Shown here one piece after another: positions 1 through 50,037 of a stretch of DNA of 64,000 nucleotides (within the stretch, counting starts at the first letter, position 1; every line of letters starts with the position of its first letter). The notes under the pieces are model-generated. The model saw only the letters and a list, made by a program, of their open reading frames with translations, did not search any database and was not told the origin of the DNA. Position numbers and translations under genes: made by a program. The DNA comes from Musa acuminata AAA Group (lineage: Eukaryota > Streptophyta > Magnoliopsida > Zingiberales > Musaceae): contig NC_088342.1 of NCBI RefSeq assembly GCF_036884655.1, positions 16,825,001-16,889,000 of the forward strand, written 5' to 3'.

Positions 1-442
1 AAAATTGTTTTGACATTTATGACTTGATTTTTCATCTATGTTATTTACCTTTGTCATAGTTTAGAAATTGATGTAAAGGGAAAAAAATATATAAATTATA
101 TTCTTCCCTTATTTTTGACAATGATAAAGGGGGAGATAGCTAGCTTGCATACTTCAAAAAGAAGCAAAAAGCTTGCTCATCTCAAAAAGATGCAAAAATC
201 TTGCCAACTTTCATATGTGTAAAATATGCTAGCTCACAAATTGTAAAGAGAAAAACTTGCTTGCTTGCTAGCATATCTAAAGAGAAGATGCAAACATACT
301 TCATGTAGCTTGCTTCATGTAAAACATTGTATATTGCTAGCTTGTTATCTTGCATTATTTTTCAAAAAACTTGTTAGCCTTTATACTTCAAAGAGAAGTA
401 ACACTTGCCAAATTGCTAGCTTGCATGTTGTAAAATAATATA
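1..442 (+). other. Non-coding 3' spacer of E0
   Basis: AT-rich, with no open frame of note. It carries repeated short phrases (gctagcttgc, agaagcaaaa) and one Sirevirus-type polypurine tract (aaagggggagat, 125-137), preceded by tttttgacaatgat. The matching spacer at 53040-53500 in E7 has the same phrases. It continues at 12015. Confidence 0.7.
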
Positions 443-774
443 AAATTTGTTGAATCTCGGATTTTGATGATGAAGTCAATTGTCATTTGTTATCTAATCC
501 ATATGTTGAGATAAGTGTGCAGGATTAACTACGATGAAAGACATGCAGCAGGAGTTACACAAGAGTCAAGACTATGATCACGTTGGGAGTTCGAGAGTTC
601 GTCGGAAGTCCGGACGGTTGTCGGAGGTTCTGCAGGAACAAATCCGAGAAGTCTAGGAGCTTGCCAAAAGAAGCTTGTCAGAAGTCCATAGGAGCATCAC
701 CGAGGGTTCATCGGATGATCGACGGAAGTTCGCCGGAAGCTCGCCGAAAGAAGCGATTGACGCACCGGAGCAAG

Positions 775-5780: not shown

Positions 5781-6272
5781 TGTTAGGACTCTAGCATGGA
5801 GAGTCCTAATTGAGAGGGACTTTCATGTAAAACTATTAGGACTCTAGCTAGGAGAGTCCTAATTGAGAGGGACATCCATGTAAAACTGTTAGGACTCTAG
5901 CTAAGAGAGTCCTAATTGAGAGGGACATTCTATTAGGACTCTAGCTAGGAGAGTCCTAATTGAGAGGGGCATTCATGTAGGAGGTTTTTTCTTAGAGAAG
6001 AATTAGGAGTTGTAAGGGAATAGGAGTTTTGAGTAGGAGTCCTATTAGGAGTTGGTTAGAAGTAAGAGTCTTAAGTAGGAGTCCTATTAGGAGTTAGGAT
6101 TTAGAAGCCCTATAAATAGCCATGTATTCCTTCTTTTTTCTTAAGTAATAAATGAATCTTTTCTGCAGCCTTTGAGCAGCAACTTGGAGGGGGGAAACCC
6201 CTATAGAGTTCCAAGGAGGCCGATCCCCTAAAGAGATCAACCCCAAGTTTAGAATCTGCAAGGGTTCTATCA
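5781..6272 (+). repeat. Gypsy A 3' LTR
   Basis: 492 bases, nearly identical to 775-1265, including all four tandem units and TATAAATA at 6111-6118. Confidence 0.93.
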
Positions 6273-6427
6273 GCAAGTTGCAGTAAATGTTTTAAGAAAT
6301 ATCATAGTTAGCATGATGATTAAGTTAGAAATAGGAGGTGATCTCATTAACTTAATCTTGGGGCAATTGGGCTCTTGATAGACCCAAATTGGGCCGAATG
6401 GATCAGCCCATTCGGACCCAGATTTCT

Positions 6428-6541
6428 TGGCCAACGGTGGCACCGCCTGGGTCGGCGGTGGCACCGCCCAAGGCTCAGTCTCCGAGCTAGGCTAGATGGT
6501 GCAACCGCCCCTGACAGGCGGTGGAACCGCCTGAGCTCGGT
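6428..6541 (+). repeat. Palindrome array in E1 5' LTR
   Basis: Three or four copies of a GGCGGTGGCACCGCC-like near-palindrome separated by ctcGGTCTCCGAGC-like palindromes. The array ends abruptly at the fusion to gag. Confidence 0.75.
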
Positions 6542-6542
6542 C

Positions 6543-6789
6543 TCACCAAAATCCAACCACCTTCATAAAAGGCCCTATCTTACATATTCGACACCAAAGC
6601 AAATGCAACTTTTGTTGCAAATATGGACACAAAACACATCAGTGTCCATTCAAGAAAATTAGTCCGAATAAATTAATTTGGGTTCCTAAAGGAACTATGA
6701 TAAACTCTATGCAACATGATAAACAATGTAGATCAGTTTTTGAGGCACCCAAAAGCAAATGGGTACCTAAAAATTATCCTTTCTTGTAA
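6543..6789 (+). pseudogene. E1 gag 3' remnant (second zinc knuckle)
   Basis: Encodes the C-terminal 80 or so residues of Sirevirus Gag, including the CX2CX4HX4C knuckle CNFCCKYGHKTHQC, and ends PKNYPFL-stop (TAA 6787). It aligns directly with 16760-17008 in E3 and 57333-57579 in E5. The N-terminal three quarters, including the first knuckle, is deleted: the preceding base pairs are LTR. Confidence 0.85.
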
Positions 6790-7689
6790 AGACATACACC
6801 ATCAAAAGCTAGGAGCAAGAGATAATATCTTGCTTTTTGGGTACTCGATATTCATGACTTGAGATCCAAAAGAACACGTAATGCTCTCTAGCCTAAATAG
6901 TAAAAAGAGGATTAGAAAATTAATATTGCAGAGTGATACTAATACAATCCTGTTTAATCCCTCAGATTTTGAAACTCATAATTCTCCCTTCACATACCCT
7001 CTAGATTTCTGAACTCATTGAATTGATTTCTTCTTTACCTTCGGATCCAACTATATCATGAACTTACGTCTTGCAAGCAAAGTTTGTCATAAACTTGCGA
7101 AGCTTACCAACTTGGATAATAAGTCATGAACATGTCTAAAATTGTGTAAGACATTTAAAGTAGAATATGCGCGTCACAAGATCTATCTTGAACGTACAAA
7201 ATTTCTCATCTTGAAATGGAAACTCTTACATAATTACGAAAGTAAAGTTGATTGCTCCACAAATGAAAACTCTCCTAAAGTTGAAAACATCCAAATCAGC
7301 CCATACAACCCTCAAACAAGTGCTCACCGCCTGTAGGTGGTGGCACCGCCCAACTGGCGATAGCACCGTCGGTTGTCACGGGTTGCAAGCGATTGCACCG
7401 CCCTAGTCAGCGATGCAACCACCCGCAATCTTACCCCCTTTTAAACTGAGCTAGGGCTGGTAGTGGAACCGACCCCAACTCTCTCCCTTCCCCTCTTTAC
7501 ACCACCAAAGCTTCTCCACCTCCATTTCTCCCATCTTAGCATCCCAAATACTCCTCATTTCGAAGCAAAAGATAAGCAATCTCTCCTTCTCTTAAGGATC
7601 TCACTTAAGATATTATCTAAGAAGCCTTTAAATTCTGTTTTTAAGTCATTTACTCTTGCTCATTACTATCTTCTTAAATAGTAGTAGTT
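6790..7689 (+). other. E1 gag-to-ORF2 spacer: decayed start of pol, palindromes and CT-rich leader
   Basis: The first 40 or so bases continue the gag frame as in E6 (HTPSKARSK) and then lose the protease. The rest is AT-rich and shared with 17009-17575 (E3) and 57580-58464 (E5). From about 7325 to 7420 there are GGTGGCACCGCC-type palindromes, then 'cccccttttaaac' (7434-7446), then a CT-rich stretch (7470-7570) that looks like a plant 5' UTR ahead of the ORF2 ATG. No intact gene seen. Confidence 0.65.
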
Positions 7690-8799
7690 ATGAGCTCTAG
7701 AAGATCCTCTAGGAACAAAGGGAAGAGGAGATTAGAAGAAGACTTTGATCTTACCCTTTTCGATTCAAAATATCATGCTGAAAAATTTTCTTCCTTCGAA
7801 TTTAGAAGTGTCAATAAGGGAAAACATGTAGATCTAGATGAACTAAGAGACTTAGAGACAATCTAATGGTTTGCAAACTTAGATCTACTCCCAATTTTAC
7901 AAATTAGTGAACCCATCTATCCAAGACTTGTTAGATTATTTTACAACAATCTACAAGTAGATGAAGAAGAAAGAGTGTCTACCTATCTCTTAGGAAAACA
8001 TATCTCCATTACGGATAGTTTCATTTGCAACATGATAAGCATTCCCGTAAAAAATAGAGGTCTTTATTTTAGAGGATCGTGGGATAATGAAACAGTTGAG
8101 ACAACATATGTTGAAGCCTTAGGAACAAATTTCGATAATCTCAACTTAGTGATAGTTCCTAAAAGCTATGAACATCTACTACCACTAAACACTAAGGTAT
8201 TTCATCATATCCTAACTAGCATCATTCTCCCTAAACAATACCATCATGATGAAGTAAGTCAAATGGAATTAGGAACCATGTATTGGATCATGAAAGGACA
8301 TAACATCTGTTTTGGTTACCTTATCCAACAAAACATGATAGAATTATCTAAGAAAGACATGACGCTTCCATATGGTGGTATAATCACTAGAATACTTAAA
8401 GCCTATGATATTCCAATACCACCCGACGAAGAAGTGATGAAAGTAGACAGGTTTAGCATAATAAATAAAAATCTACTTCACCGATTGAGTTGTTTTTATA
8501 GAAACGGTAATTGGGTTAGAATGCCTAGAAGAACTGATCCCCCTCAACTTGAATCAGAACCCGAAACACCAGTCTTTAGGGGTACTCAATCTCCTCCGAT
8601 ATGTCCCTTTGAGGAAACACATCCATTTGAGCAAGCTTCTGCATCATCTATCGAAGACATTGGGATTCAGATGGACCGATTTGAACAAAGATAAGATCTG
8701 CTTGAACATCGACAAGATCAAATCCTATCTGAGCTGCAGCAAATTCATCGATAATTTTACTCTTTATTTAGGCATTTTAATTTTCCACCTCCTGAATAA
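7690..8799 (+). pseudogene. ORF2 of E1: plant-transposon-protein-like ORF, nearly intact
   Basis: Begins MSSRRSSRNKGKRRLEED and ends FNFPPPE-stop in the frame used throughout: 369 codons, broken by TAA at 7864 (before WFANLD), TAA at 8692 and another near 8750. The sister copy at 22491 reads a sense codon (caa) in place of the second. Features: a basic N-terminus; a central domain with PRLVRLFYNNL, then YLLGKHISITDSFIC, LYFRG, HHILTSIILPK and LPYGGIITRIL; and a Gln-rich C-terminus (RQDQILSELQQIHR) likely to form a coiled coil. The layout resembles the 'putative plant transposon protein' domain (PF20167, from memory). Function is unknown. It stands where pol should be, between gag and an RNase H tail. 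Copies lie at 22491, 58465 and, on the minus strand, 27201-28570. Confidence 0.7.
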
Positions 8800-10588
8800 G
8801 CTTGTATATGTGGACACAATCACCTCTTGTTGTAATAATTACGTTGCTGTAAACTCTTTATGTTACTCACCTTGATCACAATGCCTTGATGACTACTAAT
8901 CTTTGATGTGGTTACTTAATGTATTAATTGGTTAGAATATGCAGGGTTACGTTGTTTAATCTCTTTACTTATTGTCGAATTTCACATTGAAATTAAATAT
9001 TTCTATAATGCCTACTTTGAAAACCTTGTGTCTTGATTTCCATGATAAATATGATTTGAGAAAGTAATATAGCCATGAAATTGATGTGTCATTACCATGA
9101 TGTTAATGTGTCATGATGTTACCATGATGATGATGTATTGCCATGATGTTAATGTGTCATTGTATTGCCATAGTACTAAACATCAACTAGCTGATATTTT
9201 TATAAAACCTCTAAGCGAAGAACAATTTGATTTCATTAGAAGAGAATTAGGAATGTTAATGTGTCCGAATACATAAACTTGTTAAAATTATTTTTCAAAC
9301 TTTATTGATTGAATGATCAAATCACTTGATTGCCATTATATGCCTAAAATTACATGTTGGAAATTATGTATTTTGGATACAAAAATTTCCATAACAATGA
9401 GCATGTTTTGTCTTCATGATTGGATTTGAAAATCTATAGTATAGTCTTGTCCGAATGCATGAAAGTGTTAATTTCATTTTCAGAATCTCTTAACTAGTGG
9501 TATCATAACAATCAGATTTTCTCGATACATTATTCTCTTCCGAACTTAAAAAGCATATGTCATATCGAGTTTGATTCTCATCATTGATCTTTGACATATG
9601 AAATCAACTAGCAAATACATCTCTCATACACTCATCATGTGAAAAATATTTTTTGAGAAATGGATTTGATGAAATGATTCCTACTTGTAAATTCCTTCTT
9701 GAAATATGGATGATAGTGTTTTTACTTGCAAGGATTTGTTTCACATACATATCTTGATCCTTGTAAAAATGAAGTTTGATTTAATCTCTCATCAATTTTA
9801 ACTTCATTCAAAGTAAACTCACAAATAGCTGGTATTATAAATAGCCTTCCTCCTTCATGCAAAAATATAATAACAAATAAAAAGGAAAAAGTATTCAAAG
9901 CTATCTCCATGTCATGTTTTCCTTGAGATGTTTGCATAATTGGTATCCTATCACTCACTAATGGAAATTGACATGAACCTAATTATGGCATGAATAATTA
10001 CCGCACTTATGCTTAAAATTTGCTTATATCGTTCTCCTTTTTGTTGATGACAAGGGGGGAGAAATATATGAATTGATACTATGAGTGCCATATTTGAATG
10101 AGAAATATATGAATTGATGCTATGAGTGCCATATTTGAACTATGTTATTGCCATATTTGCACTATGTTATTGCCATATCATGATAAAATATCAAGAACTT
10201 GCATAGCAACTTTACTTGTTGATATCTTGCCATATGGTGCTACGATTGCTAAACACTTGAAATGTTTGCTTTACGTTAAGATATCAAAAGCTTAAATTGT
10301 AAATTTAAATGTTGATATCTTATGTTGAACTGCTACCATCATTCATATTTGAAATGCAAAACTTGAGAATGGATGTCAAGTCTTGACATCATTTTCAGTA
10401 AGATACATCGTGATAGGAATCATGATGGGAATAATTGATAAGGTTAAGAGTTCTTAACTTATCAATAAGTCTATTGAATTCAAAGGCATTGAATTCAAGA
10501 ATGACTTATCTCAAGTATGGTATATAGATAGGGGGAGTTAAGGTTAACTCCGTTATCAATTGATTGTCATCATCAAAAAGGGGGAGAT
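8800..10588 (+). other. E1 3' spacer with multiple polypurine tracts
   Basis: AT-rich, non-coding except for the RNase H remnant at 9175. It has local tandem phrases (9097-9170 'ccatgatgttaatgtgtcat'; 10070-10170 'gaattgatactatgagtgccat'). Polypurine tracts lie at 10051-10063 and 10576-10588, both preceded by a gttgatgacaa or gtcatcatcaa phrase, as usual for Sireviruses. Confidence 0.75.
9175..9276 (+). pseudogene. Sirevirus RNase H C-terminal remnant
   Basis: 34 codons reading TKHQLADIFIKPLSEEQFD and on to a TAA stop: the classical end of the Ty1/copia RNase H. E6 has the same peptide at its pol end (about 40741-40840, minus strand). It lies downstream of ORF2 and shows that the ancestor had a normal pol. 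A few codons of the same tail survive in E3 near 23761-23780. Confidence 0.88.
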
Positions 10589-11099
10589 TGTTGAATCTCA
10601 GATTTTGATGATGAAGTCAATTGTCATTTGTTATCTAATCCATATGTTGAGATAAGTGTATAGGATTAACTACGATGAAAGTAAGACATGCAGAAAGAGT
10701 TGCACCGGAGTCAAGACTATGATCACGTTGGGAGTTCGAGAGTTCATCGGAAGTCCGGAAGGTCGTCTGAGGTTCTGCGGGAACAAATCCGAGAAGTCAG
10801 GAGCTTGCCAAAAGAAGCTCATCGGAACTCGCCAAGTGGATCGTTGCAAGTCCAGGAGTTTGCCGGAAGTCCGTAGGAGCATCACCGAGGGTTCATCGGA
10901 TGATCGACGGAAGTTCGCCGAAAGAAGCGATTGACGCACCGGAGCAAGTTGCAGTAAATGTCTTAAGAAATATCGTAGTTAGCACGATGATTAAGTTAGA
11001 AATGGGAGGTGCTCCCATTAACTTAATCTTGGGGCAATTGGGCCCTTGACAGACCCAAATTGGGCCGAATGGATCAGCCCATTCGGACCAAGATTTCTT

Positions 11100-11392
11100 G
11101 GCCAGTGGTGGCACCGCCCAGGGCTAAGTCTCCGAGCTAGGCTGGGCGGTGCAACCGCCCCTGATAGGCGGTGGAACTGCTTGAGCTCGGTCTTCGAGCT
11201 CTGCCAGGTGGTGCAACCGCCCTAGTTAGGCTGTGGCACCGCCTGGGCTTAGTCTCCGAGCTAGACTGGGCGGTGCAAACACCCCTGTCAAGCGGTGGCA
11301 CCGCCGGAGCTCGGTCTCTGAGCTCTGTCAGGTGGTTGTACCACCCCATTTAGGTGGTAGTACCGCCCCAGTTAGGCGGTAGTACCGCCAGA
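11100..11392 (+). repeat. Palindrome array in E1 3' LTR
   Basis: About eight GGCGGTGGCACCGCC-like near-palindromes alternating with CGGTCTCCGAGCTC-like palindromes, CpG-rich, ending about 60 bases before the TATA box. CpG- and palindrome-rich LTR segments are a known Sirevirus trait. Confidence 0.8.
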
Positions 11393-11450
11393 ACCCCAGA
11401 AATCCGGGAGGTGACATTTTTGAGCTCCAAATTCAAACCAGTTTAGGGCC

Positions 11451-11458
11451 TATATATA
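11451..11458 (+). promoter_or_regulatory. TATA box of E1 3' LTR
   Basis: 'gggcc TATATATA cccc'; the same context is found in the other Sirevirus LTRs (TATATAAA 14886 and 26123, TATAAATA 13581, 29342, 48903, 55153). Confidence 0.6.
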
Positions 11459-12009
11459 CCCCACCCTTTCCTGCATGAAAGGATACCGAAAATCCAATCT
11501 TACTCTATGATTTTTAGAGCTCAAAAGTGTTGTATGAGTTAAAAGTTCTCCTTCCTCTTTTCTTCCAAATTTTGATCTGTCAAGAGAGGAAAGAAAATTC
11601 TGTAAGGGTTGTCTCCTAAGCCCATCAAAAGGAGTGAAACTATAAAAGGGTGGTTGGCCTTCGCCTATTGAAGGAAGGCCTCTAGTGGACGTCGGTGACC
11701 TCATCGGAGGAGGAAGCCAAAAGTGGATGTAGGTCAAGATAGACCGAACCACTCTAAATTTGCAGTGCTCTCTGGTTTGCATTTATTCTTACTGCTTACC
11801 TTACTGCAAACCTCCATATGTACTTTATTTCCTCTTTACTTTTGCTGCACTCCTTTATGAACTCGCTTTCAAGTTAAGTTTCTGAAAATGGTTTTACGTC
11901 GGAAACGATTTCATCTTACGAACGCAGTTTTAAATGTCGAAAGTATTCTGCTGCACTAATTCACCCACCCCCCCCCCCCCACCCCCTCTTAGTGCTCTTG
12001 ATCCTAACA

Positions 12010-12502
12010 AAATTTTGCTAGCTTACACTTTGCAAAGGAAGCAAAAATGACACTTCTCAAAAGAGAAGAAAGAGCTTGTTATCTTGAACATCACCAAAAA
12101 ATTGATAGATTGCCTATCTTAAGAAACAAAAAGGCAAACTTGCATAATTTACGGTCTTGCACATCTTTAAAATTAATGATGATTTGGTGATTATGCATGT
12201 TGTAAAGTGATGCTAAATTTGCTAGCTTGAATGATGATAAAACTGAAGATCATAATTATATTACAATGATTTGAACTTCTATATCCAAATACTTGATAGT
12301 TATAACTTCTCCTTTTTGTTGATGACAAAAGGAGAGAAGTATGATCATGTTATGCCTGATGACATGTTGCAAATATTCATGATGAAATTTGCAATATGTG
12401 AATTCAGCTTGAATTCAAGGTTATATCAATATGGCATATTGATAGGGGGAGTTAAGGTTAACTCCGTCATCAATTGGTTGTCATCATTAAAAAGGAGGAG
12501 AT
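12010..12502 (+). other. E0 3' spacer, continued
   Basis: Starts with the duplicated AAATT target, then resumes the spacer that ended at 447. It contains polypurine-like tracts at 12327-12339 (acaaaaggagagaag) and 12491-12502 next to the LTR. No gene seen. Confidence 0.7.
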
Positions 12503-14110: not shown

Positions 14111-15374
14111 TGTTGAATCTCGGATTTTGATGAAGTCAACTGTCATTTGTTATCTAATCCATATGTTGAGACAAGTGTGCAGGATTAACTATGATGGCAG
14201 TAAGACATGCAGTAGGAGTTACGCCGGAGTCAAGACCATGATCACGTTGGGGGTTCGAGAGTTCGACGAAAGTCCGGACGGTCGTCGGAGGTTCTGCAGG
14301 AACAAATCCGAGAAGTCCAGGAGCTTGCCAAAGAAACTCATCGGAACTCACCAAGTGAATCATCACAAGTCCAAGAGTTTGCTAGAAGTCCGCCGGAGCA
14401 TCGCCGAGGGTTCGTCAGATGTTCGCCGAAAGTTCGCCGGAAGAAGCGATTGACGCACCGGAGCAAGTTGCAGTATTAATGTCTTAAATATCGTAGTTAG
14501 CATATAGATTAAGTTAGGAATGGGAGGTGATCCCATTAACTTAATCTAGAGACAATTGGGTCCTTGACAGACCCAAATTGGGCAGAATGGATCAGCCCAT
14601 TCGGACCTAGAATTCCTGGCCGACGGTGGCACCGCCTAGGAGACTTGGTCTCCCAGGAATTCTAGGCGGTGGTACCGCCCCTGTCAGGCAGTGGTACCGC
14701 TTGAGCTTGATCTCCGAGCGAAGTCAGGCAGTGGTACCACCCCTATCAAGCAGTGGTACTACTTGAGCTCGGTCTCCGAGTGGTGTTAGGTGATAGTATC
14801 GCCCAGTTATGGCAGTAGTACCGCCAGGACCCCAAAAAATCGAGAGATGACACTTTTCAGCTCCAAATTCAAACTGATTGGGGCCTATATAAACCCCACC
14901 CATCCTGCATGAAAGGGTAACCGAAAGCTTACATTTATTTTGAGAAATTGAGAGCTTAAAAGTTTTGTAAAAGGCTATAAGTTCTTCTCCCTCTCTTCTT
15001 CTAAGTTTTGATCATTCAAGAGTGGAGTGAAAATCTATAAGAAATGTCTCCTAAGCCCGTCAAAAGGAGAAAAGGTGTAAAAGGTGGTTGGCCTTCACCT
15101 ATTGAAGGAAGGCCTCTAGTGGACGTCGGTGACTTCGTCGGAGGAGGAAGCCAAAAGTGGATGTAGGTCAAGATTGACCGAACCACTCTAAAATTACGAT
15201 GCTCTCTGGTTTGCATTTATTCTTGTTGTTTATCTTACTGCAAGCCTCCATATGTGCTTTACTTCCTCATTACTTTTGCTGCACTCCTTTACGAACTTGC
15301 TTTCAAGTTAAGTTTTCGAAAACGGTTTTACATCGGAAACAATTTCATCGTACGAAGGTTGTTTGATCCTAACA
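14111..15374 (+). repeat. E3 5' LTR
   Basis: TGTTGAATCTCGG...GATCCTAACA, 1264 bases. Palindrome array about 14620-14825, TATATAAA at 14886-14893. Its end lacks the poly-C tract found in other copies. Confidence 0.92.
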
Positions 15375-15424: not shown

Positions 15425-17008
15425 ATGGCATACGCCGGAAACCAAGAGGGCCACTCTATTACACATCCACCCATATTCAATGGGACGGACTACACCTATT
15501 GGAAGACCCGAATGAGGATCTTCCTTATTTTCATAGATTTTGAACTATGAAATATTGTTGAAAATGGATTTTCAAAGTCTTCTCTTTCAATGATCGATTG
15601 GAATGAATTGGAGAAGAAGACTTTCGCTCTTAATGCAAAGGCTATGAATGTCTTATTTTGTGCGCTTGATAAAAATGAGTTCAATCGTGTTTCAATTTAT
15701 GAAACTGCATTTGACATTTGGCATACACTCGTAGTGACTCACGAAGGCACAAGTAGAGTGAAAGAGTCAAAAATTAATCTTTTAGTACATTCTTATGAAC
15801 TTTTTTAAATGAAACCGAGCGAGACCATAGGTGACATGTACACCCATTTCACGAATGTCGTCAATGGTCTAAAAGGACTTGGTAAAAGTTTTTTGGATTT
15901 TGAGCTCGTGAATAAGATTCTAAGATCACTTCCAAAGAGTTGGGACCCTAAAGTCACTGCTATTCAAGAGGCTAAAGATTTAAACAACTTCCCTCTTGAA
16001 GAATTAATCGGGTCATTAATGACCTATGAAATGACTTGCAAAGCTCATGAAGAGCAAGAAGACATCCTTCCAAAGAACAGGATGGATATGACACTTAGAA
16101 CTTTAGAAGACCACTTGAGTGAAAACTCAAGTGATGAGGACTATGACGATGACTTAGCACTTCTAACAAGGAAATTTAAAAAATTCATTAAAAGAAACAA
16201 GTTCAAAAATGACACAAAAAATAAATTTGAACCCAAGAAGGACCAAGTTATTTGCTACGAATGCAAGAAGCTAGGACACTACAAAAGTAATTGTCCCCAA
16301 GCCAAGAAGAGAACACCAAAGAAGAAGGCGCTTAAAGCAACGTGGGATGACTCAAGTGCGTCCGAAGAAGAGGAGTTCAACACCGAGCAAGTTGCTCACT
16401 ACGCCCTAATGGCCATTGGAGAGGAGGTAACAAATTTAATTGATGCAGATTTATCATTTGATGAATTATTAAATGCTTTCCATGACTTATTTGATGAATG
16501 CAAAATAATTAGTATAAAATATAAATTGTTAAAAAAGGAGCATTATAGTCTTATTAGTAATTTCGATAAACTAAAAACTGAATATCATAATAGTTTAGCT
16601 CCATGTATAAAATGTCATGATCTAGAAACTCTCTAAAAGGAGAACTTGCTACTTAATGAGACCTTGAAGAAATTCAAGGTTGGTAGTAAATCTTTGAATA
16701 TGATCCTTACAAATAAGCGTCACGTTCCTAAAAGAAGTGGAATCATATTTGTGAGAAGTCCTCACCAAAATCCAATCACTTTCATTAAAGGCCCTATCTT
16801 ACATGTTCGGCACCAAAGCAAATGCAACTTTTGTTGCAAATATGGACATAGAACTTATCATTGTCCATTCAAGAAAGTTAGTCCGAACAAACTGATTTGG
16901 GTTCCTAAAGGAACCATGATAAATTCTATGCAACATGATAAACAATTTAGATCAGGTTTTGAGGCACCCAAAAGTAAATGGGTGCCTAAAAATCATCCTT
17001 TCTTGTAG
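15425..17008 (+). pseudogene. E3 Sirevirus gag
   Basis: A single frame of 527 codons starting MAYAGNQEGHS, with three stops (TGA 15548, TAA 15806, TAA 16634). It encodes the particle-forming Gag: N-terminal copia gag domain (DYTYWKTRM, ALNAKAMN, LDKNEFNRVS), then SETIGDMYTHF...LRSLPKSWDPKVTAIQEA, an acidic stretch, first zinc knuckle CYECKKLGHYKSNC (about 16255-16296), a coiled Lys/Leu-rich part and second knuckle CNFCCKYGHRTYHC (about 16822-16863). It ends PFL-TAG, and the frame stays open for a few codons that match the start of pol in E6. The TAG may be the normal gag end. Confidence 0.9.
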
Positions 17009-17575
17009 AAACATACACCATCACAAGCTAGGAGCAAGAGATAATATTTTGCTTTTTGGGTTCTCAACATTCATGACCCGAGATCTAAAAAGACTCGTGA
17101 TTCTCTCTAGCCTAAATAATAAACAGATGATTAGTAGAATTAATACTACCAATTACTAAGTGATATTGATGCAATCATGTTTGATCCCTCAGATTTTGGA
17201 GCTTATAATTCTCCCTTCACACATCCCCTGGATTTCCGAATTCATCACATTCATACCTTCTTCATTTTATTTTTGGATCCAACTTACATCTTGCAAGCCA
17301 AGTTTGTCATAAACTAGCAAAGCTTACAAACTTGTATAATAAGTCATGAACATGTCGAAAATTGTATACGACATTTGAGGTAGAGTATGTACTTCATAAG
17401 ATCTATCATAAACGTATGAAATCTCTCATCTTGTGATGGAAACCTTTACATAATTATATAATTAAGTTTGATTGCTCCTCAAATAAAAATTTTCTACAAA
17501 TTGAAAACATCCACATCAGCCCACACAGCCCTCAAAATAGTGCTCACCGCCCAGTTGGCGATAGCACCGCCGACT
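17009..17575 (+). other. E3 gag-to-ORF2 spacer, first part
   Basis: The same decayed region as 6790-7430. It ends in GGCGATAGCACCGCC palindromes where the minus-strand LTR element is inserted. No gene. Confidence 0.65.
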
Positions 17576-18021
17576 TGTCACAGACTTAGCTGGTTTTGCC
17601 TAAGTCGTGCGGCACCCTCGCATGTCCGTCCGCAAAGGTCGGCCTCCCCGAAGCCTCCCATTATCCCTTAGGACCAACAAAAGAGAGAATGGGTTAGAGA
17701 GAACGCCTCAATCGGGATCCACAAGCAAACATCTCCGAAAAACACTTCATAGACAATGCAAATTACAAACAGACTTTGCAAGCTCTAAACAGTGGCACAA
17801 CAAAGGGTAAAATGGTCCATTATAGACCGAAAATCTCTCGCACGTGTCCACATGACACAACCTTTATTTACAAGCCTAAAGAGGCCACCAACCCAACTAA
17901 AATGGGACTATTAAGCCTTCGACCGCCCCTCTACATGTTATACAAGGCATGAACATGCCAAAAGACACGAACATACATAAGCATTACATCAAACACCTTG
18001 TTTACAAGTTTGTCCGTGACA
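17576..18021 (-). repeat. 3' LTR of the LARD-like element
   Basis: 446 bases. Read on the minus strand it starts TGTCACGGACAAACTTG. Very similar to 21732-22177. Confidence 0.85.
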
Positions 18022-18034
18022 TTCTCCCCCACTT
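18022..18034 (-). other. Polypurine tract of the LARD-like element
   Basis: The complement reads AAGTGGGGGAGAA directly before the 3' LTR start. Confidence 0.65.
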
Positions 18035-18039
18035 ATTCC

Positions 18040-21000
18040 TTTGACGTCCTCGTTGAAGCCTTTGTCGACACTGCAACTCCTCGCCTTTGCTAAGTCTTCA
18101 ATCTTCTACTCTAGCTACAATGCGCCTCTTGGCTCCTAGCTGCTCTCCGCTGTTGTTTTTGAGTAGTCGAACCTTTGATCCACCATGCTGCTTCAACTCA
18201 CCAATGACTCTGACTCTAGTGTGGGGTTGGCTGAGTTGTGTTGATCATTGTTGATTCCTGCGGATCCCTTAGATGAAGGAAAATACCATCCTTACTGCGC
18301 CAGTCTCTCAAATGCCTCATGCTGCTTGAACTGGGTGGATGCTTGTTGGAGCTTTTAACGAGCATCGTCTCGCAAACTTCTGAAGTTTTGGGTCCTTCCT
18401 CTATATAATTTGCTCATTGACTCTTCTTTCACTTAGTTATCACATCCAAGTAGGTTCGCATCACTTCTGCTTTCGATTGGCATTTCGTTGGGAAATGAAG
18501 TGGACAATCTACTCTCAGTAGCACTGATCACCGTTGGTGAGGATTTGTCAACTATTGTCTTCCATTATCTTTGAAGGGTCTTTGAACTTGCAGAGCTCCT
18601 CTGCTGGATAGATAAGAGAATTGGGGTACTCGGTTTCGCCCATTCTCTTAAGAGTTGAGAAGGCAAAGGTTACTTGACTTCGCCCGCCTCCTCGAGGTTG
18701 TACTCCATGTATCGAGTTGGTTATTGGCTTTCGCCTGCTCTTTGCTCACACTTCTGAAGCACTTGAAGTGTTTGCACTCCTTGCGTTGAGTTAGTTACTA
18801 TGATTCACCTTCCCAATGCTATCGAACTTCTGGAATGCAGGAAGTTTTCACCCCAACTTGGAGTAATTCTCTCATAGGTTTGGTCGCCTCTGGGATTGTA
18901 CCGTCTTCTCCATCAACCCTGCCGCCTACTCCACTGAGTAGCAAAGGTACAACACCGCGTACTGCCTGCTTCGTTCCTTGGTTATGCACTTTTGCATGAC
19001 CCGAAGTCCTTCACTTTCGGCTATCTTGATGAGAAGCTCATTGACACCGGTCTTACGAAGTTCCTCGGCCTCTGCCCTTCAGCCTTGTTTCGGTATTTGG
19101 AGATTGCCTCTGCATGCTCCACCTCCTCGGCCCCTTTCACGACCAAGCGCTCTCCCTCCATGAGAGCAAGGGATCAATGACTTTCATGGAAGTCCCGCCT
19201 CTACGGTACCATGGCACTGCCATGCCCATGGCCCTACTATCCGTCGCCTTGCATCTGCATCCCTTTTCTTCATGATCAGTAGATATGTCTCCATGGCACT
19301 CCTCTGAGTCCACCTCCATTCTAACTGATGCTTGATTTTGGGTAGCTAAGTCCCTTTGGACTCATCGTCGCTTCCTCGCCCCTTTCGACCCCCTACTTCA
19401 ACACCTCTGTGTTCTCCAAGCAGTCCATTTGGTTGATAGAAAGACAGACTGCAACTCCCATGCATGGCCTCTGCCATCACATTGTAGGGTTTGCACCGAT
19501 TGTGTTCTCCTTAGCTTCCTTGGTAGTAACGTTCGCTTACTTGGCCTTGTCCTCTGACTTGTCGGGCTCCCTTAAGCGAATATGAGCTCTGGAGCAGTCT
19601 AACTCTCCAGCTGCTTCGATCATACCTCTGCATGATCAAGTCCCTACCATGGAACTCACTGGTACTTGCATTCGAACTTTTCCCTTGGTGGAACCCAGCC
19701 CCCATATGCTGATGACCAAGGTTTTCATCCGATACAAAATTCGATGCACGCACGGAAGACCCGCCTCTGCAGTACCATGGCCTTCACTCCTTGAATCCAT
19801 AGCCCTTCTTGTTGTCGTGGTGTTCACCGAAGTGGAGCTTCCAGTAGCTCCCGATCATACCTCCATATGATCTAGTCCCTCATGGGGCTAGATCGTGTGT
19901 ATCACATTGCCACGAACTATTCCACTATGATCCGCTGCACCATGTCGCCTCCTGGTGACATCTCCATTGCATTCTGATCCTTGTGGAATAAACTCGAATT
20001 GTGAACCCTCCATGTGTGGCCTTTGCCAATACATCACAGGGTCTCTTCCACCTTCGATTTTGTTCGCTCCTTTGGCAATCGACCTTCATCCACCCACTCT
20101 TGGGTCACACCTAGATGAAGCACCGCTCTAGGACAGTCCGTCACCTAGTAGCTCCCGAAGTCCACTAACGTCACTATAATTTGTGTACTATTGTCTGGAT
20201 CCTGGGCCTCTGCCTCTACCAGCACAATCTCCGCTGCGCACCGCTTCCTTCATGGCAACTTGAATGGCAACACTATGGTATATTCTTTAAGAGTACCCAC
20301 CTTTGAGTCCTTTTGCCCCGTGCTAAGGCCTTCTGAACCCAACTTCGCCTCTGCAAATTGAGTCGCCTTAGTTCCTCCATCAAATGCTCCTCCAAGATAA
20401 GGTGCATGTGCCCAGAAGCTCCCTTCGTCTTTGACACCATGCAAGATGAGTCCACTCCGACATAATGAATGGCCCATGGAACAACATGATCCTGCTCTTG
20501 CCTCTACAAGAGTTCATGTCCTTGACCTCTGTCCAAGGAAAGCACTGTGCCTCTACTCCATGTTCCAACTTCTATGCTGGCTCCCTTCATGCGGTTTGAG
20601 TACTTCGCCAAGTTACACCCAAGTTGCTCCGCTCCTCGTTTTTGCATTGAGTTGATGGTGGCCCTCGTGCCCACCATTCCATGGGTCAGCCCTCCCTTGA
20701 GTCCGATCTCCACATCGACTCCAAGTGTGCTTTCATTTAAGTTGCTTTGGGTCGCTCCCCCACTTGATCTCGTAATGCATCCACTAATGCATTCTCTCAA
20801 GTGAGATCATGCGACGACTCCTCGCCGCTTGCTCAGTCCATTGAGCTTCGTGGAGTCGTTGTTTGTTGAGGTACTCCTCCTCAACATGTGAGGTCCGTCT
20901 CACATGATTCTCCCTCTAGAGAGCCAGGACTTATCCCTCCTGGATAACTGTCCCATTGGAGCAACATCTCTCTTCGTTTCGGAGACCACTATCCCCTTGG

Positions 21001-21717
21001 ACTACTTCGATCTGCTGAACAAACTGTGCATTGTTCTGCCTCCTGCAAACGCACTTGCTAGATTGTGACTCCACGTCAATACAGCCCCCGCTGCACCACT
21101 CAAGGCCTAGCAACATGCTGAACTCATTGCACACTCCAGCCTCCTACGGACGTATCCTTCACAAGCCGAAGAGAAATTTCTAATGCTCTATGGCACCGAG
21201 TTTCGGTCGCCTTGGGATAGCCATGAACATTCCATCGTCCGCATACAAGCCCATGCATGAGTACCAAATTCTTCGAGTTAGCAATTCCCCTCACCTCTGT
21301 GAGCTTTGCATAACTCTTTTGGTCATTGAGCAACTCATTCCACCTTAGATGGTCTCATCCTTTACCAAGCGCCTCACTTGCCTTGAGCACCATCAAGTAT
21401 GGTTGTCAACGTTGAGCCGTAGCTCAAACTTAGCCAACGTTGAGCGGGCATCTAACATTGGCATTCAGAGGAATGGCCAACCTTTGTGCGCTCCGCATTC
21501 TTCCAAGCTTACCTGTTCTCATGGTGCCTCTTGCGCGAAGGGTTGGCCATTCCTCTGAATGCCAATGTTAGATGCCCGCTCCTCCGAGCGACTCCTTTTC
21601 CCTACATCTCCATGCCCGTTTTTCCCCAAACGGTCGCGCGTGTGCTGACTGCCCTCAACGTAGCCCCGCTAGGTCCCCCACGTTTGCCTGCTAAGTGTTT
21701 TTATGAGTGCTTGTCCC
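18040..21717 (-). other. Internal region of the LARD-like element, no gene recognised
   Basis: GC-moderate, Cys/Ser-rich in all translations, with stops in every frame. Frames of up to about 113 codons exist on either strand but show no domain or consistent continuation. A long inverted repeat lies at 21442-21581. It may be a decayed gag-pol or captured DNA; I cannot tell. Confidence 0.5.
21442..21581. repeat. Perfect 41-base inverted repeat with 58-base loop
   Basis: 21442-21482 (gagcgggcatctaacattgg...) is the exact reverse complement of 21541-21581. It lies near the 5' (minus-strand) end of the LARD-like element, about 150 bases from its LTR. Confidence 0.9.
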
Positions 21718-21729
21718 ACTCTAATACCA
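21718..21729 (-). other. Primer-binding site of the LARD-like element
   Basis: The complement TGGTATTAGAGT differs by two bases from the TGGTATCAGAGC used by the neighbours; it lies two bases from the 5' LTR. Confidence 0.65.
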
Positions 21730-21731
21730 TC

Positions 21732-22177
21732 TATCACGGACTTAGCTGGTTTTGCCTAAGTCGTGCGGCACCCTTGCGTGTCCGTCCGCAAATGTCAACC
21801 TCCCCGAAGCCTCCCATTGTCCCTTAGGACCAACAAAAGAGAGAACGGGTTAGAGAGAATGCCTCAATCGGGATCCATAAGCAAACATCTCCGAAAAACA
21901 CTTCATAGACAATGCAAATTACAAACAGACTTTACAAGCTCTGAACAGTGGCACAATAAAGGGTAAAATGGTCCATTACAGATCGAAAATCTCTCGCACA
22001 TGTCCACATGACACAACCTTTATTTACAAGCCTAAAGAGGCCACCAACCCAACTAAAATGGGACTATTAAGCCTTCGGCCGCCCCTCTACATGTTGTACA
22101 AGGCATGAACATGCCAAAAGACACGGACATATATAAGCATTACATCAAACACCTTGTTTACAAGTTTGTCCATGACA
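21732..22177 (-). repeat. 5' LTR of the LARD-like element
   Basis: 446 bases, the pair of 17576-18021. The outer end (22177) starts TGTCATGGAC on the minus strand. Confidence 0.85.
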
Positions 22178-22490
22178 GACTATCACGGGCGACAAGCGGT
22201 TGCACCGCCCAGCCAGCGGTGCCACCGCCTGCAATCTGCCCCTTTTAAACCGAGCTAGTACCGGCGGTAGAACTAACCCCAACTCACTCTCTTCTCCTCC
22301 TAGCAGCTCTAAAATCTTCTCCACCTCCATTCCTCCCCTTTAGCTACCTAAAAACTGCCTATTTCGTGCAAGATCAAGAATCAATCATTCATCCTCTTGA
22401 AGATCTCAACTAAGGTATTCTCTAAGAGGCTTTTGATTTCTGTTTTGAATCATCTACTCTTGCTCATTATCTTCCTAAATAGCAATAGTT
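22178..22490 (+). other. E3 spacer before ORF2: palindromes and CT-rich leader
   Basis: Resumes the E3 spacer: GGTTGCACCGCC and GGTGCCACCGCC palindromes (22190-22232), 'ccccttttaaaccgag' (22239-22254), then a CT-rich leader up to the ORF2 ATG. The same order is seen at 7325-7689 and 58115-58464. Confidence 0.6.
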
Positions 22491-23599
22491 ATGGGCTCTA
22501 GAAGATCCTTTAGGGACAAAGGGAAGAGGAGATTAGAAGAAAACTTTGATTCCACACTTTTTGATTCAAATCTACATGCCGAAAAATTTACTTCCATAGA
22601 ATTTAGAAATGTTCATAAGGGAAAGTATATTGACTTAGATGAACTAAGTGATTTAGAGCCAATTCAATGGTTTGCAAATCTAGATCTTCTCCCAATCCTA
22701 CAAATAAATGAACCCATCTACCCTAGACTTGTTAGGTTGTTTTATAACAATCTACATATAGATGAAGAAGAACGGGTGTCTACCTATCTTCTAGGACATC
22801 ATATATTTATCACGGATAGATCCCTTTGCGACATAATAGGCATCCCTATAAAAGATAGAGGTTGTTATTTTAGAGGATAATGGGATGATGAAACAATTGG
22901 GACTACGTATGTTGATGCCTTAGGAACAATTTTCGGTAATCCCAACTTAATGGTTTTTCCTAAAAGCTATGAACATCTATTACCATTAAACACCAAAGTA
23001 CTTCATCACATTCTAAGTAGTATCATTCTCCCTAACAATACCATCATGATGAAGTAAGTCAAATGGAACTAGGAACCATGTACTGGATCATGAAAGGATT
23101 TAACAACTGTTTTGGTTACCTTATTCAATAAATTATGATAGAAATATCTAAGAAAAACATGATGCTTTAATATGGTGGCATAATCACTAGAATACTTAAT
23201 ACCTACGATATTGCAATACCACCCGATGAAGATGTTATAAAGGTAGATAGATTTAGCATCATAAATAAAAATCTGCTTCATCGAATGAGATGTTTATTTA
23301 GAAATAGAATGTGGGTTAGAATGCCTAGAAGAACCGATCCCCCTTAACCTAAACCAGAACTAGAAATATCAATCTTTAGGGGTACTTAATCTCCTTCGAC
23401 TAGTCTATTTGAGGAAACACATCCATTTGAGCAAGCTCCTGCATCATCTATCGAAGACATAGGGATTCGGATCGATCGCTTTGAACAAAGACAATATCGG
23501 CTTAAACATCGCCAAGATCAAATCCTATCTAAGCTACAGTAAATTCATCGACAATTTGACTCCTTATTTAGGCATTTTAATTTTTCACCTCCTGAATGA
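22491..23599 (+). pseudogene. ORF2 of E3
   Basis: Starts MGSRRSFRDKGKRRLEENFD and is open to a stop at 22878 after DRGCYFRG. It then continues in shifted frames (WDDETIGTTYVDALGTIFGNPN, HHILSSIILP, MPRRTDPP) to FNFSPPE-stop at 23597. Several stops and at least one base loss near 23035. Homologous along its whole length to 7690-8799; see that entry for domain layout. The N-terminal part is the cleanest. Confidence 0.72.
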
Positions 23600-25417
23600 G
23601 CTTGTATATGTAAATGTGGTCACAATTTCTTCTTGTCTTGTTGTAACAATTATGTTATTGTAAACTCTTTATGCTACTCACCTTGATCACAATGCCCCTT
23701 GCCTTGATAACTACTAATCCTTGATATGTTTTACTTAATGTATTATTTGGTGACAATATGCAGAGTTAGGAATATTAATGTAGATTGAACATCGTTTTTG
23801 GATTTTCCTTGAATCTCTTTACGCTACTCGTCTTCAAATTTTTCTTGATCACTTAAGTTTCATATTGAGATTGAATGCTTCTATAACTTGCTTACTTTAT
23901 AAGTTGAAAATCTTGTGCCTTGGTTTCCATGATGAGCATGTTATACTCTCATTGTGATTTGAGAAGATTCATACATCGAATTCTTAATCCTTGAGCACTA
24001 CAAAATTTTGTCTGAATGCATGAACTTATTAAAATTATTTTTCGGACTTTCTTGATTCAATCACTTAATGCTATGATGAGAAGCTTATATGATTACATGT
24101 CTTAATAACATGTTGAAAATTATGTGTTTTAGATATAAAAATTTTCATAATGATAAGCATGTTTTATCTTCATGATTATGTTTGAAAATCTATAGCAAAA
24201 CCATGTCTGAATGCATAAAAGTGTTAAATTTTATTTTCGGATTTTCTTGATCCTAACATGATTTAGTATTTCTCTTCCGGACTTAATGTAGCTTTCATAA
24301 GCATATGTCATATTGAGTTTGTTTCATATCATTGACATATGGAATCAATTAACAAATGCATCTCTCATAGACTTATCGTGTGAAAAATATTTTTTTTGAG
24401 AAATGAATTTAATGAAATGATTCCTTCTTATGAATTCCTTCTTGAAAAAGGAAGATCATTTTTAACACTTGCAAGGATTTGATTCACATACATATCTTGA
24501 TCCTTGCAAAAATGAAGCGTGATTTAATCTCTTATCGATTTTAACTTCATTCAAGTAAGCTCACAAATGATTTTCCTCCTTCATGCAAAAAGATAATGAC
24601 AAATAAAAAGGAAGAAGTAGTGAAAGCTATCTCCATGTCATGTTTTCCTTGAGATGTTTGCATAATTGGTATCCTATCACTCATTGTTAAAAAATGACAT
24701 GAATCATTACCGCACTTATGCTTAAAGTTTGCTTAAATAGTTTTCCTTTTTGTTGATGACAAAGGGGGAGAAATACATGGTAAATTGATGATAGAATTGC
24801 TATGAGTGCCATATTTGAATTATGTTAAGATATCAAAAGCTTGCATCAAAATATATGATATTTTGATGATAGAATTGCTATGAGTGCCATATTTGAATTA
24901 TGTTAAGATATCAAAAGTTTGCATCAAAATATATGATAAATTGGTGATAGAATTGCTATGATTGCCATATTTGCACTATACCATATTTGCACTATGTTAA
25001 GATATCTAGAGCTTACATCACAATTCTACAAATTGATATATTGTCATGAGATGAAATGCTATGATTGCTAAACACTTGAAATATTTGCATTATGTTAAGA
25101 TATTAAGAACTTACATCGCAATTTTACATGTTGATATCTTACTATATGATGAATTGCTACGATTGCTATCTTTCACATTTGAAATGTAAAACCTGAAAAT
25201 GGATGTCAAGCCTTGACATCATTTTCAGAGAAATGCATCATGATAGGAATCATGATGGGAGTATTGATAAGGTTAAACGATCTTAACTTATCAATATGTC
25301 TCTTGAATTCAAAGGCTTTGAATTAAATAATGACTTATCTCAAGTATGGCATATAGATAGGGGGAGTTAAGGTTAACTTCGTTATCAATTGATTGTCATC
25401 ATCAAAATGGGGGAGAT
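23600..25417 (+). other. E3 3' spacer with tandem repeats and polypurine tracts
   Basis: Non-coding, aligned with 8800-10588. A few codons of the RNase H tail near 23761. A repeat of about 90 bases ('gatagaattgctatgagtgc') occurs about three times in 24782-24985. Polypurine tracts at 24761-24773 and 25405-25417. Confidence 0.7.
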
Positions 25418-26679
25418 TCTTGAATCTCAAATTTTGATTATGAAGTCAATTTTTATTTGTTATCTAATCCATATGTTGAGATAAGTGTGCAGGATTAACT
25501 ACGATGGCAGTAAGACATGCAGTAGGAGTTACGCCAGAGTCAAGACCATGATCACGTTGGGGGTTCGAGAGTTCGACGGAAGTCCGGACGGTCGTCGGAA
25601 GCTCTACGAGAACAAATTCGAGAAGTCCAGGAGCTTGCCAAAGAAGCTCGTCGGAACTTACCAAGTGGATCGTCGCAAGTCCAAGAGTTTGCTGGAAGTT
25701 CGTCGGAGCATCGCCGAGGGTTCGTCGGATGTTCGTCAGAAGTTTGCCAGAAGCTCGCTGGAAGAAGCGATTGACGCACCAGAGCAAGTTGTAGTATTAA
25801 TGTCTTAAATATCGTAGTTAGCATGTAGATTAAGTTAGGAATGGGAGGTGATCCCATTAACTTAATATGGGGGCAATTGGGCCCTTGACAGACCCAAATT
25901 GGGCCAAATAGATTAGCTCATTCAGACCTAGAATTCCTAGCTGGCGGTGGCACCGCCCAGTAGACTTGGTCTCCCTGGAATTCTGGGCGGTGGTACCGCC
26001 TGAGCTCAGTCTTAGAGTGGTGTTAGGCGGTAGTACCGCCTAGTTATGGCAGTAGTACTGCCAGGACCCCAAAAAATCGGGAGATGACACTTTTCAGCTC
26101 CAAATTCAAACTGAATGGGGCCTATATAAACCCCACCCTTTCTACATAAAAGGGTAACCGAAAGCTTACAATTATTCTGAGAATGTGAGAGCTTAAATGT
26201 GTTGTAAAAGGCTATAAGTTCTTCTCCCTCTCTTCCTCTAAGTTTTTATCATTCAAGAGAGGAGTGAAAATCTGTAAGGGTTGTCTCCTAAGCCCGTCAA
26301 AAGGAGAAAATGTGTAAAAGGTGGTTGGCCTTCGCCTATTGAAGGAAGGCCTCTAGTGGACGTCGGTGACCTCGTCGGAGGAGGAAGCCAAAAGTGGATG
26401 TAGGTCAAGATTGACCGAACCACTCTAAAATTACGGTACTCTTCGATTTGCATTTAATCTTGCTGTTTACCTTATTTCAAACCTCCATATGTGCTTTACT
26501 TCCTCATTACTTTTGCTGCACTCCTTTATGAACTTGCTTTCAAGTTAAGTTTCCAAAAACAGTTTTACGTCGGAAACGATTTTATCGTACGAACGTTGTT
26601 TGAAATCAACAAAAAATTTTCCGCTGCACTAATTCACCTCCCCCCCCCCCCCCCTCTCTTAGTGCTCTTGATCCTAACA
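25418..26679 (+). repeat. E3 3' LTR
   Basis: Starts TCTTGAATC (TG changed to TC), ends GATCCTAACA after a poly-C tract. 1262 bases, the pair of 14111-15374, TATATAAA at 26123-26130. The palindrome array is shorter than in the 5' copy. Confidence 0.9.
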
Positions 26680-26705
26680 ACCCCCCCCCCTCTTAGTGCC
26701 GACTC

Positions 26706-27772: not shown

Positions 27773-28570
27773 ATAGATTCATGTTCCCTAAATATTGGTG
27801 TTTCAGGTTCTGGATCAAGTGGGAGGGGGTCAGTCCTTCTAGGTAATCTAGTCTAAGTCTCATTTCTGACTATACATCTTAATCTTCTTAGTAGGTTTCT
27901 ATTTATGATATTAAACCTATCTAGTTTCAACTTTTCTTCGTTAGGTGGAATGACTATGTCATATGCATAGATTATTCTAGTGATCAAACCACCATATGGA
28001 AGCATCATATCCTTTTTTGATAGTTCGATCATGTTTTGTTGTATTATGTAACCAAAACAATTGTTTTGAGAGTATAATACTTATCAAGATGTGATGAAGC
28101 AATTTGGCATTGAAAGGTAATAAATGTTCACAACTTTTTGGAAGGATAGACAAGTTTGGATTACCAAAAATAGTACCTAATGCTTCAAAATAAGTGGTTC
28201 CAACTAATTCTTCGTCCCATTGTCCTCTAATGTAACAACAGCTCATTTTCTCAGTAATTCCTATGAGGTTATAAATTATGCTATCTGTAATAGGTATATG
28301 ATGTCCTAAGAGATAGGTGGAGACCCTATCGTGTTCATCCATACGCAAGTTGTTGTAAAACAACTTAACAAGTCTAGGATAGATAGGTTTACTTATTTAA
28401 AGGATTGGGAGGATATCTAGGTTAGCAAACCATTGAATTAGTTCCAAATTACTCAATTCCTTTAAATCTACGTATTTACCCTTATGAACATTTCTAGATT
28501 CTATGGTTAGAAATTTAAGGCATGTTGAGGAGAATAAAAAAGTAGGGAGTCATAGGTTTCATCTAATCTT
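27773..28570 (-). pseudogene. ORF2 fragment, minus strand, unit 2
   Basis: The longest ORF2 piece of this locus. From 28570 it reads DETYDSLLFYSPQHALNF (N-terminal region), FYNNLRMDEHDRVSTYLLG, FEALGTIFGNPN, HHILISIILSKQ. A deletion follows that fuses this to FWLHNTTKHDRT in a shifted frame. The first 20 or so codons are removed by the E2 insertion. Confidence 0.75.
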
Positions 28571-38365: not shown

Positions 38366-38448
38366 CATGAGGTAGTACTGCCAGGACCTCGGAAATCTGG
38401 GAAATGACATTTTTGAGCTCCAAATTCAAACCAGTTTTGGGCCAATAT

Positions 38449-43700: not shown

Positions 43701-43761
43701 GTCTTGAACATCCACTATCTCGATACCATCTCTTGCTCCTTGCTTGTGATGGTGTATGTTT
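40741..43761 (-). pseudogene. E6 pol: protease, integrase, RT, RNase H
   Basis: Continues in the gag frame after a single TAG. Protease active site D-S-G at 43711-43719 (YRDSGCSRHMTRD). GAG-pre-integrase with WHRRLGHAS and CDACQLGK; integrase core [28 protein letters not shown] with [53 protein letters not shown] and catalytic YIDD at 41650-41661. RNase H with YADADFGG and VEAEYIAA, ending LGMLNCP near 40741. It makes the cDNA and integrates it. In-frame stops lie near 43162, 43050, 41665 and 41468; otherwise the frame is preserved, so decay is recent. Confidence 0.9.
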
Positions 43762-45346: not shown

Positions 45347-45384
45347 CTCTCTTGGGTATCAAACCAAATATGAGAGTGAGCTTA

Positions 45385-45396
45385 GCTCTGATACCA
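45385..45396 (-). other. Primer-binding site of E6
   Basis: The complement is TGGTATCAGAGC, two bases inside the 5' LTR. Confidence 0.9.
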
Positions 45397-45398
45397 AT

Positions 45399-48902: not shown

Positions 48903-48910
48903 TATAAATA
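48903..48910 (+). promoter_or_regulatory. TATA box of E7 5' LTR
   Basis: TATAAATA in 'gggcctataaatacccc', about 60 bases after the palindrome array. Confidence 0.65.
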
Positions 48911-49880: not shown

Positions 49881-50037
49881 AAGTAAAACTGCGCTTAATC
49901 TTAAGTAATCTTAAAATCGGCTTTTACATCGAAATCGTTTTTATTAAACGAACGCAGCTTTCATTTTTAATCGCTGAAAGATTTCCGCTGCACTAATTCA
50001 CCCCCCCCCCCCTCTCAGTGCTCTCGATCCTAACAAT

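Follow-up and report, generated by a model that had tools for sequence, protein, structure and literature searches.

Gag and a PF20167 gene without pol: a two-gene Sirevirus family in Musa acuminata

The 64,000-nt stretch of Musa acuminata AAA Group analyzed here (GCF_036884655.1, NC_088342.1, positions 16,825,001-16,889,000, forward strand; hereafter the window) was dissected by self-comparison (blastn), translation, tblastn, and Pfam, and resolves into nested Sirevirus elements, designated E1, E3, E4, E5, and E6. Behind gag, in the place of pol, E1, E3, and E5 carry a second reading frame, ORF2, and the most complete view of this order is given by E1 (LTR, long terminal repeat; PPT, polypurine tract):

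438..774, + strand: E1 LTR fragment, first part (blastn 80% to the 3' LTR at 10588-10949; interrupted by the Ty3/gypsy element 775-6272)
6272..6543, + strand: E1 LTR fragment, second part, joined to the gag end (blastn 86% to 10943-11193)
6542..6789, + strand: E1 gag 3' end, stop 6787-6789 (tblastn to E5 gag, 81% aa; zinc-knuckle-like motif by eye)
6790..6910 (approx.), + strand: E1 decayed pol start, or stub (alignment with the E3, E5, and E6 pol start)
7320..7480, + strand: E1 GC-rich RM-type cluster before ORF2 (GC 0.60; one exact GGTNNNACC box remaining)
7481..7689, + strand: E1 ORF2 leader (collinear with 4994-6611 of genomic copy L009, 80%)
7690 (ATG)..8799 (stop 8797-8799), + strand: E1 ORF2, PF20167, 369 codons (three in-frame stops ahead of the end)
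9172..9276, + strand: E1 copia RNase H end, last 34 codons and stop (translation; tblastn matches 30/30 pol loci)
9277..10588, + strand: E1 linker (PPT octamers: 10530, and 10579 at 10 bp from the LTR)
10589..12010, + strand: E1 3' LTR (blastn and sequence; start from sequence, end approximate)

An earlier note on this DNA had read E1 as gag end, decayed pol start, spacer, ORF2, 34 codons of RNase H, spacer, and LTR, an order that the coordinates and translation bear out; its length of 369 codons for ORF2 also holds, but the frame is not open. Only the 3' end of gag is present in E1, joined to the LTR fragment at 6542/6543, and no other copy in the window has the RNase H tail. The gag end and the first part of the stub are 84% identical to L009 (blastn). 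ORF2 likewise follows gag in E3 (22491) and E5 (58465), as the same note had it, both elements being split by nested insertions (17572-22182 and 47557-56313):

14111..15374, + strand: E3 5' LTR (blastn; ATTGGTATCAGAGC att-PBS, primer-binding site, at 15375)
15569..17008 (last ORF stop), + strand: E3 gag (tblastn 81-85% to E6 gag pieces; Pfam Retrotran_gag_2, zf-CCHC)
17572..22182, strand not assigned: insertion of an unrelated LTR-type element into E3 (444-bp terminal repeats, 17578-18021 / 21734-22177, 95%)
22183..22290, + strand: E3 RM-box cluster before ORF2 (2 exact boxes)
22491..23600, + strand: E3 ORF2 (start intact; stop at codon 130, frameshift, more stops)
24009..25416, + strand: E3 pol end and linker (PPTs at 24763 and 25359)
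25417..26680, + strand: E3 3' LTR (blastn)
46654..47183, + strand: E5 5' LTR part (blastn; att-PBS at 47184)
47363..47556, + strand: E5 gag, part before nested E4 (tblastn)
56311..57579, + strand: E5 gag, part after nested E4 (blastn/tblastn)
58110..58270, + strand: E5 RM-box cluster before ORF2 (3 exact boxes)
58465..59184, + strand: E5 ORF2 with a 197-bp internal duplication (ends prematurely, cut at about 59184)

The 4.6-kb insertion in E3 is a non-coding LTR-type element in which no ORF reaches 120 aa. Ahead of an E1-like linker, E3 retains roughly five codons from the end of pol (read from the sequence). Collinear stretches common to E1, E3, and E5 share 83-89% identity (blastn within the window), and the same order recurs in 12/12 fetched genomic copies, so that the architecture is not due to chance; that gag and ORF2 stand together without pol is as good as certain.

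The comparison of P0002, an intact ORF2 homolog, with the genome gave 10,613 first-look candidates, and only the best 111 were scored; these have 96-98% identity, 110 span residues 1-368 (one 1-367), and 94 are stop-free. Genome copy counts would be inflated if the assembly is, as it may be, a phased triploid. Twelve copies (L009-L020) were fetched from the best 111 and, being picked by protein match, are biased to young ones. All 12 hold gag and ORF2, and none has a match inside the element to the protease (PR), integrase (IN), or reverse transcriptase (RT) of E6, a relative with gag and pol; the single pol match, at 30% identity, belongs to L015, where it falls beyond the element and on the opposite strand. 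With gag and ORF2 in place, the internal region of ~4.6 kb leaves no room for pol. Eleven of the 12 have an open ORF2, six have both gag (527 aa) and ORF2 (368 aa) open, and the RNase H (RH) end is recognizable after ORF2 in four. Perfect 5-bp target site duplications (TSDs), each different from the others, flank eight copies (L009, L010, L012, L013, L015, L016, L018, and L019), which are therefore independent insertions; the TSD of L011 matches at 4/5 positions and L020 has none (L014 and L017 stood outside this assessment). LTR divergence (Kimura two-parameter) of 0.0103-0.0297 in 10/12 copies corresponds to 0.40-1.14 million years (My) at a substitution rate of 1.3e-8 per site per year. At L017 (G000 contig C13, ~6.82-6.84 Mb), three or more ORF2 copies stand head to tail, with a period of 6664 bp and 99.8% identity over the 3.3 kb compared.

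Several Sirevirus traits are present in the family. The 5' LTR/PBS junction CA/ATTGG with TATCAGAGC occurs in E3, E4, E5, E6, and all 12 fetched copies, and the PPT AGGGGGAG lies 10 bp before the 3' LTR, with extra copies in the linker, in 11/12 fetched copies and E1. The Sirevirus pol with PR-IN-RT-RH has no match in 12/12 copies, and of pol only the stub and the end are left, which makes the ORF2 family a non-autonomous Sirevirus derivative and not a full member.

The stub can be aligned across E1, E3, and E5, and the alignment of all three with L009 and L012 covers the gag end, cluster, leader, and ORF2, extending into the stub for E1 and E5 and taking in the pol end and linker for E1 and E3. 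The shared stub and pol-end junctions argue for a single hybrid ancestor, and the alignments from stub to linker place it before the split of E1/E3/E5 from L009/L012; a rough conversion of the ORF2 dS between L009 and E1 (0.62) at the assumed rate gives an age on the order of 20 My. In E1, E3, L009, and L012, the terminal pol codons and linker come after ORF2. Copies with a complete pol plus ORF2, which the earlier note had named as a case against itself, were found neither among the 12 ORF2 copies nor among 30 pol loci (flank ending ~550 bp past pol), a search far from exhaustive. The claim of a non-autonomous Sirevirus subfamily with ORF2 in the place of pol, multiplied as such, thus stands on the lack of pol in 12/12 copies, the TSDs in 8/12, and the shared junctions; of the claimed capture of an unknown gene, the replacement of pol stands but the simple capture does not, as ORF2 is a PF20167 gene located behind RM boxes like ENV.

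Selection was estimated as dN/dS by Nei-Gojobori counts with bootstrap, with non-coding pieces treated by the same method as control (0.64-0.93). For ORF2 the ratio is 0.155 [0.107-0.221] for L009-E1, 0.166 [0.122-0.230] for L009-E3, and 0.117 [0.056-0.198] for L009-E5; within the window it is 0.274 [0.184-0.396] for E1-E3, a pair not picked by protein match, 0.246 [0.137-0.409] for E3-E5, and 0.467 [0.264-0.844] for E1-E5, and pairs with a diverged fourth locus, assigned to no element, give 0.090-0.152. The gag ratios are 0.112 (L009-E3), 0.120 (L009-E6), and 0.234 (E3-E5), and pooled over the 12 young copies the values are 0.137 for ORF2, from a biased sample, and 0.202 for gag. By these ratios, in the comparison that the earlier note had proposed, the constraint on ORF2 is about as strong as that on gag and well under the non-coding control, and ORF2 is very probably useful to the element. 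One result weighs against a simple picture: among the 12 copies the dS of gag (0.23) exceeds that of ORF2 (0.083), which may reflect recombination, ORF2 modules moving between gag backgrounds, or an effect of picking copies by their ORF2 match.

As had been predicted, ORF2 belongs to PF20167 (Transposase_32), scoring 46.1 bits for a 239-aa piece from E1 and 55.2 for P0002 against a curated cut-off of 45, with shorter pieces below it (e.g., 15.3 for the start of E3). Protein searches yielded complete homologs of 364-373 aa (P0002, P0003, P0011, and P0012); the closest with a named source belong to Musa (P0012, P0014, and P0022 among them), and distant ones to Punica and Cephalotus. The Musa gene model P0057, read by eye, fuses a gag piece to an ORF2 piece, hinting at the same gene order at that locus. 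No homologs were found in general contig, viral-contig, and plasmid collections. The AlphaFold model of ORF2, unusable at first (pLDDT 49), reached pLDDT 80 once distant homologs were added and is mostly helical with a long C-terminal helix; Foldseek found no significant structural match in viral or PDB libraries. In 5/5 proteins the maximal 19-residue hydropathy is 1.09-1.29, under the threshold of 1.6 for a transmembrane segment, and the N-terminus is basic, not hydrophobic; the hydropathy scan, the sole test applied, thus gave no transmembrane domain.

Palindromic RM boxes, a Sirevirus trait in the LTR, occur twice in the family. Ten elements (L014 and L017 excluded) hold 104 GGTNNNACC boxes in their 5' LTRs and 99 in their 3' LTRs, where 2.8 are expected in each set, and another 43 in the 160 bp ahead of ORF2, against an expectation of 0.7; the gag/leader, the spacer, the ORF2 leader, ORF2 itself, and the 3' region contain none. 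GGT/ACC with spacers of 0-2 and 4-8 bases reaches at most 10 in LTRs and at most 5 before ORF2; among five other half-sites, GTG-N1-CAC is also enriched (41 and 17, with 0 elsewhere) and is part of the same box, GGTGGCACC. The boxes are restricted to two promoter-like regions, the LTR and the stretch before ORF2, and since their spacing differs (22/40 bp in the LTR versus 21/32/21 in the cluster), the cluster is not merely a copied LTR stretch. As upstream of ENV, the cluster holds 3-5 boxes in all 12 fetched copies, and older copies keep one (E1), two (E3), or three (E5) exact boxes. The LTRs of E6 and E4 bear boxes although these elements are without ORF2, and two gypsy controls have none. 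In PMC2829016 (2010), palindromic CGG-CCG boxes are described in Sirevirus LTRs, with 77/79 linker boxes upstream of ENV in nine ENV-bearing elements, none in four without ENV, and six further ENV-bearing elements without boxes; an internal ENV promoter is supported there, and the function of ENV and of the boxes is left open. Because ORF2 is a PF20167 gene with an RM-box cluster ahead, as before ENV in the nine Sireviruses, ORF2 and its boxes look like an RM-ENV module set upstream of the pol end.

The remaining Sirevirus-related features of the window are as follows:

27786..28560, - strand: fourth locus, diverged ORF2 copy (another LTR interrupts at 28570)
38447..46653, - strand: E6, relative with gag and pol (Pfam RVT_2 (RT), SH3_retrovirus; remaining pol pieces placed by position and through matches with further pol loci)
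47557..56313, + strand: E4, Sirevirus nested in E5 gag (gag ORF 50086-50913; LTRs 2.5 kb, 96% alike)

At the fourth locus, claimed earlier as 27201-28570 with ORF2 joined to an LTR, there is no plain element end, another LTR beginning within the ORF2 start at 28570; the 3' half of ORF2 and the LTR start are tandemly duplicated there (26968-27489 = 27543-28064, 87%; window 26968-28064, 575 bp). At E ≤ 0.001 the three pol pieces of E6 have no further match in the window, and E4 has no match to E6-type pol (tblastn in the window). Two similar Ty3/gypsy elements (775-6272 and 32602-38062) lie ~100 bp apart in the equivalent part of two different Sirevirus LTRs, which suggests a preferred insertion target, and an open 917-aa Ty3/gypsy pol frame with RT, RNase H, and integrase zinc-binding domains (Pfam) occupies 61233-63986 on the minus strand.

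In the explanation that we favor, E1, E3, and E5 would be old members of a long-lived two-gene family (Gag and ORF2) that also has young copies, and protease, integrase, RT, and RNase H would be taken in trans from pol-bearing relatives. E6 would be a putative helper: it shares 76-82% DNA identity in leader and gag, and LTR ends, with the family, but most of its LTR is unalignable. E4 is nearer in its LTR core (874 bp at 92% to a young ORF2-family LTR) but lacks a pol match, so that, judged by their LTRs, two non-autonomous kinds share putative promoter sequence. ORF2, with its boxes and leader, would be a Sirevirus RM-ENV module located where pol was, and its product, probably no envelope, would most likely bind DNA in the nucleus and be expressed from an internal RM/TATA-like promoter of its own. 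By occupying the GGTNNNACC boxes of the LTRs and of this promoter, it might keep the element unsilenced and transcribed, as VANC proteins do. Taken whole, this explanation falls a little short of an even chance, and the role in RM binding and anti-silencing is slightly more tentative still.

The chief competitor holds that ORF2 is the ordinary ENV-position gene of an autonomous gag-pol-ENV family, conserved in full-length members and left behind where pol was deleted. The 56,704 first-look pol candidates of the genome and the published linker boxes, upstream of ENV and, in the published set, confined to ENV-bearing elements (nine; PMC2829016), speak for it; ORF2, however, lies ahead of the last pol codons and linker, not behind them, pol and ORF2 were never found together in the two samples above, and dN/dS is low for E1-L009, a pair that lacks pol and has junctions in common, which leaves this reading unlikely. 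A role of ORF2 as a helper of Gag in structure or RNA packaging, with RNA or the particle and not DNA as its target, is rather improbable: the predicted helical fold and the retention of ORF2 with gag and nothing else are consistent with it, whereas the promoter-like cluster shared with the LTR speaks against it, and the fold searches, having no significant match, are not decisive. An envelope-like or movement protein is suggested by the position next to RM boxes, like genes named ENV, and by the PF20167 domain in the 3' extra ORF of Athila (PMC11728184), but the low hydropathy and basic N-terminus make it highly improbable. No more credible is a passenger whose low dN/dS is a relic and which spread through recognized LTRs, PBS, and PPT; E4, with gag, a similar LTR core, and neither pol nor ORF2, inserted as well, but pol-less copies differ from each other at ratios well under the non-coding control, and 94/111 best copies are stop-free. 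Segmental or tandem duplication of one locus, which the single 6664-bp array on contig C13 might recall and which the earlier note had coupled with a dN/dS near 1, is ruled out as the source of all copies by the differing TSDs, and the ratios are far from 1.

In the available portions of the literature, mostly outside subscription journals (PMC7264820, PMC2956553, PMC10398659, PMC12844716, PMC3599292, and PMC11963269), neither a pol-less Sirevirus that combines gag with a PF20167 gene nor DNA binding by Sirevirus ENV is described. An element that keeps only gag, ORF2, and boxes ties together the functions of the ENV-like gene and of the RM boxes, both left open in PMC2829016. In this family an accessory gene is under selection although its element cannot copy itself, which bears on how non-autonomous retrotransposons persist and on whether helpers are aided or only exploited. 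If ORF2 is a DNA-binding protein for escape from silencing, the long-puzzling "envelope" gene would be explained.

Among known systems, TR-GAG elements are reportedly gag-only non-autonomous LTR retrotransposons, and they resemble the ORF2 family in having Gag without pol and, presumably, borrowed enzymes. E4 looks like this kind, whereas in the ORF2 family gag is not the sole ORF: 6/12 copies have it open together with an open ORF2, which is conserved too and has a promoter-like cluster of its own. ENV-bearing Sireviruses (e.g., Inga, Barbara, Osr10, and HOPIE; PMC2829016) share the PBS, multiple PPTs, and palindromic RM boxes in the LTR and ahead of the extra ORF, and the Inga box AGCGGTASTACCGCT also contains GGT-N3-ACC, like that of the ORF2 family; in these elements ENV follows pol in the linker, whereas the ORF2 family has no pol and ORF2 stands before the pol end. 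Athila elements with a PF20167 extra ORF (PMC11728184) share the Pfam domain, with a product predicted to be nuclear, but have a Ty3/gypsy backbone and the extra ORF on the 3' side. Similarly, Retand elements with TRP28 antisense ORFs (PMC11963269) carry an extra ORF with a proposed DNA-binding regulatory role and are in part non-autonomous, but belong to a gypsy lineage and have an antisense ORF with another domain. The VANC21/VANDAL anti-silencing proteins (PMC5735166; PDB 9lnj) are likewise extra proteins encoded by transposons; they lower methylation and bind short motifs that recur in non-coding parts of their element, as GGTNNNACC does in the ORF2 family, and VANC21 (9lnj) is a possible fold match to the predicted ORF2 structure, with no significant Foldseek match in PDB. 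They differ in being from Arabidopsis DNA transposons with another motif and in DUF1985, which was listed for none of 36 ORF2 family members at E up to 10, where filters drop most matches >0.1; a sequence link between ORF2 and VANC was not found in Pfam and PDB, an absent listing that does not exclude one, and DNA binding by ORF2 is putative. In the most far-reaching reading, PF20167 genes, including at least some so-called Sirevirus ENV genes and Athila 3' ORFs, would encode no envelopes but VANC-like factors that recognize RM palindromes, both in the LTRs and at the internal promoter of their element, and there counter silencing or activate transcription; a pol-less element could then have lived for millions of years on Gag and such a factor with borrowed enzymes. 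This generalization is less likely than not.
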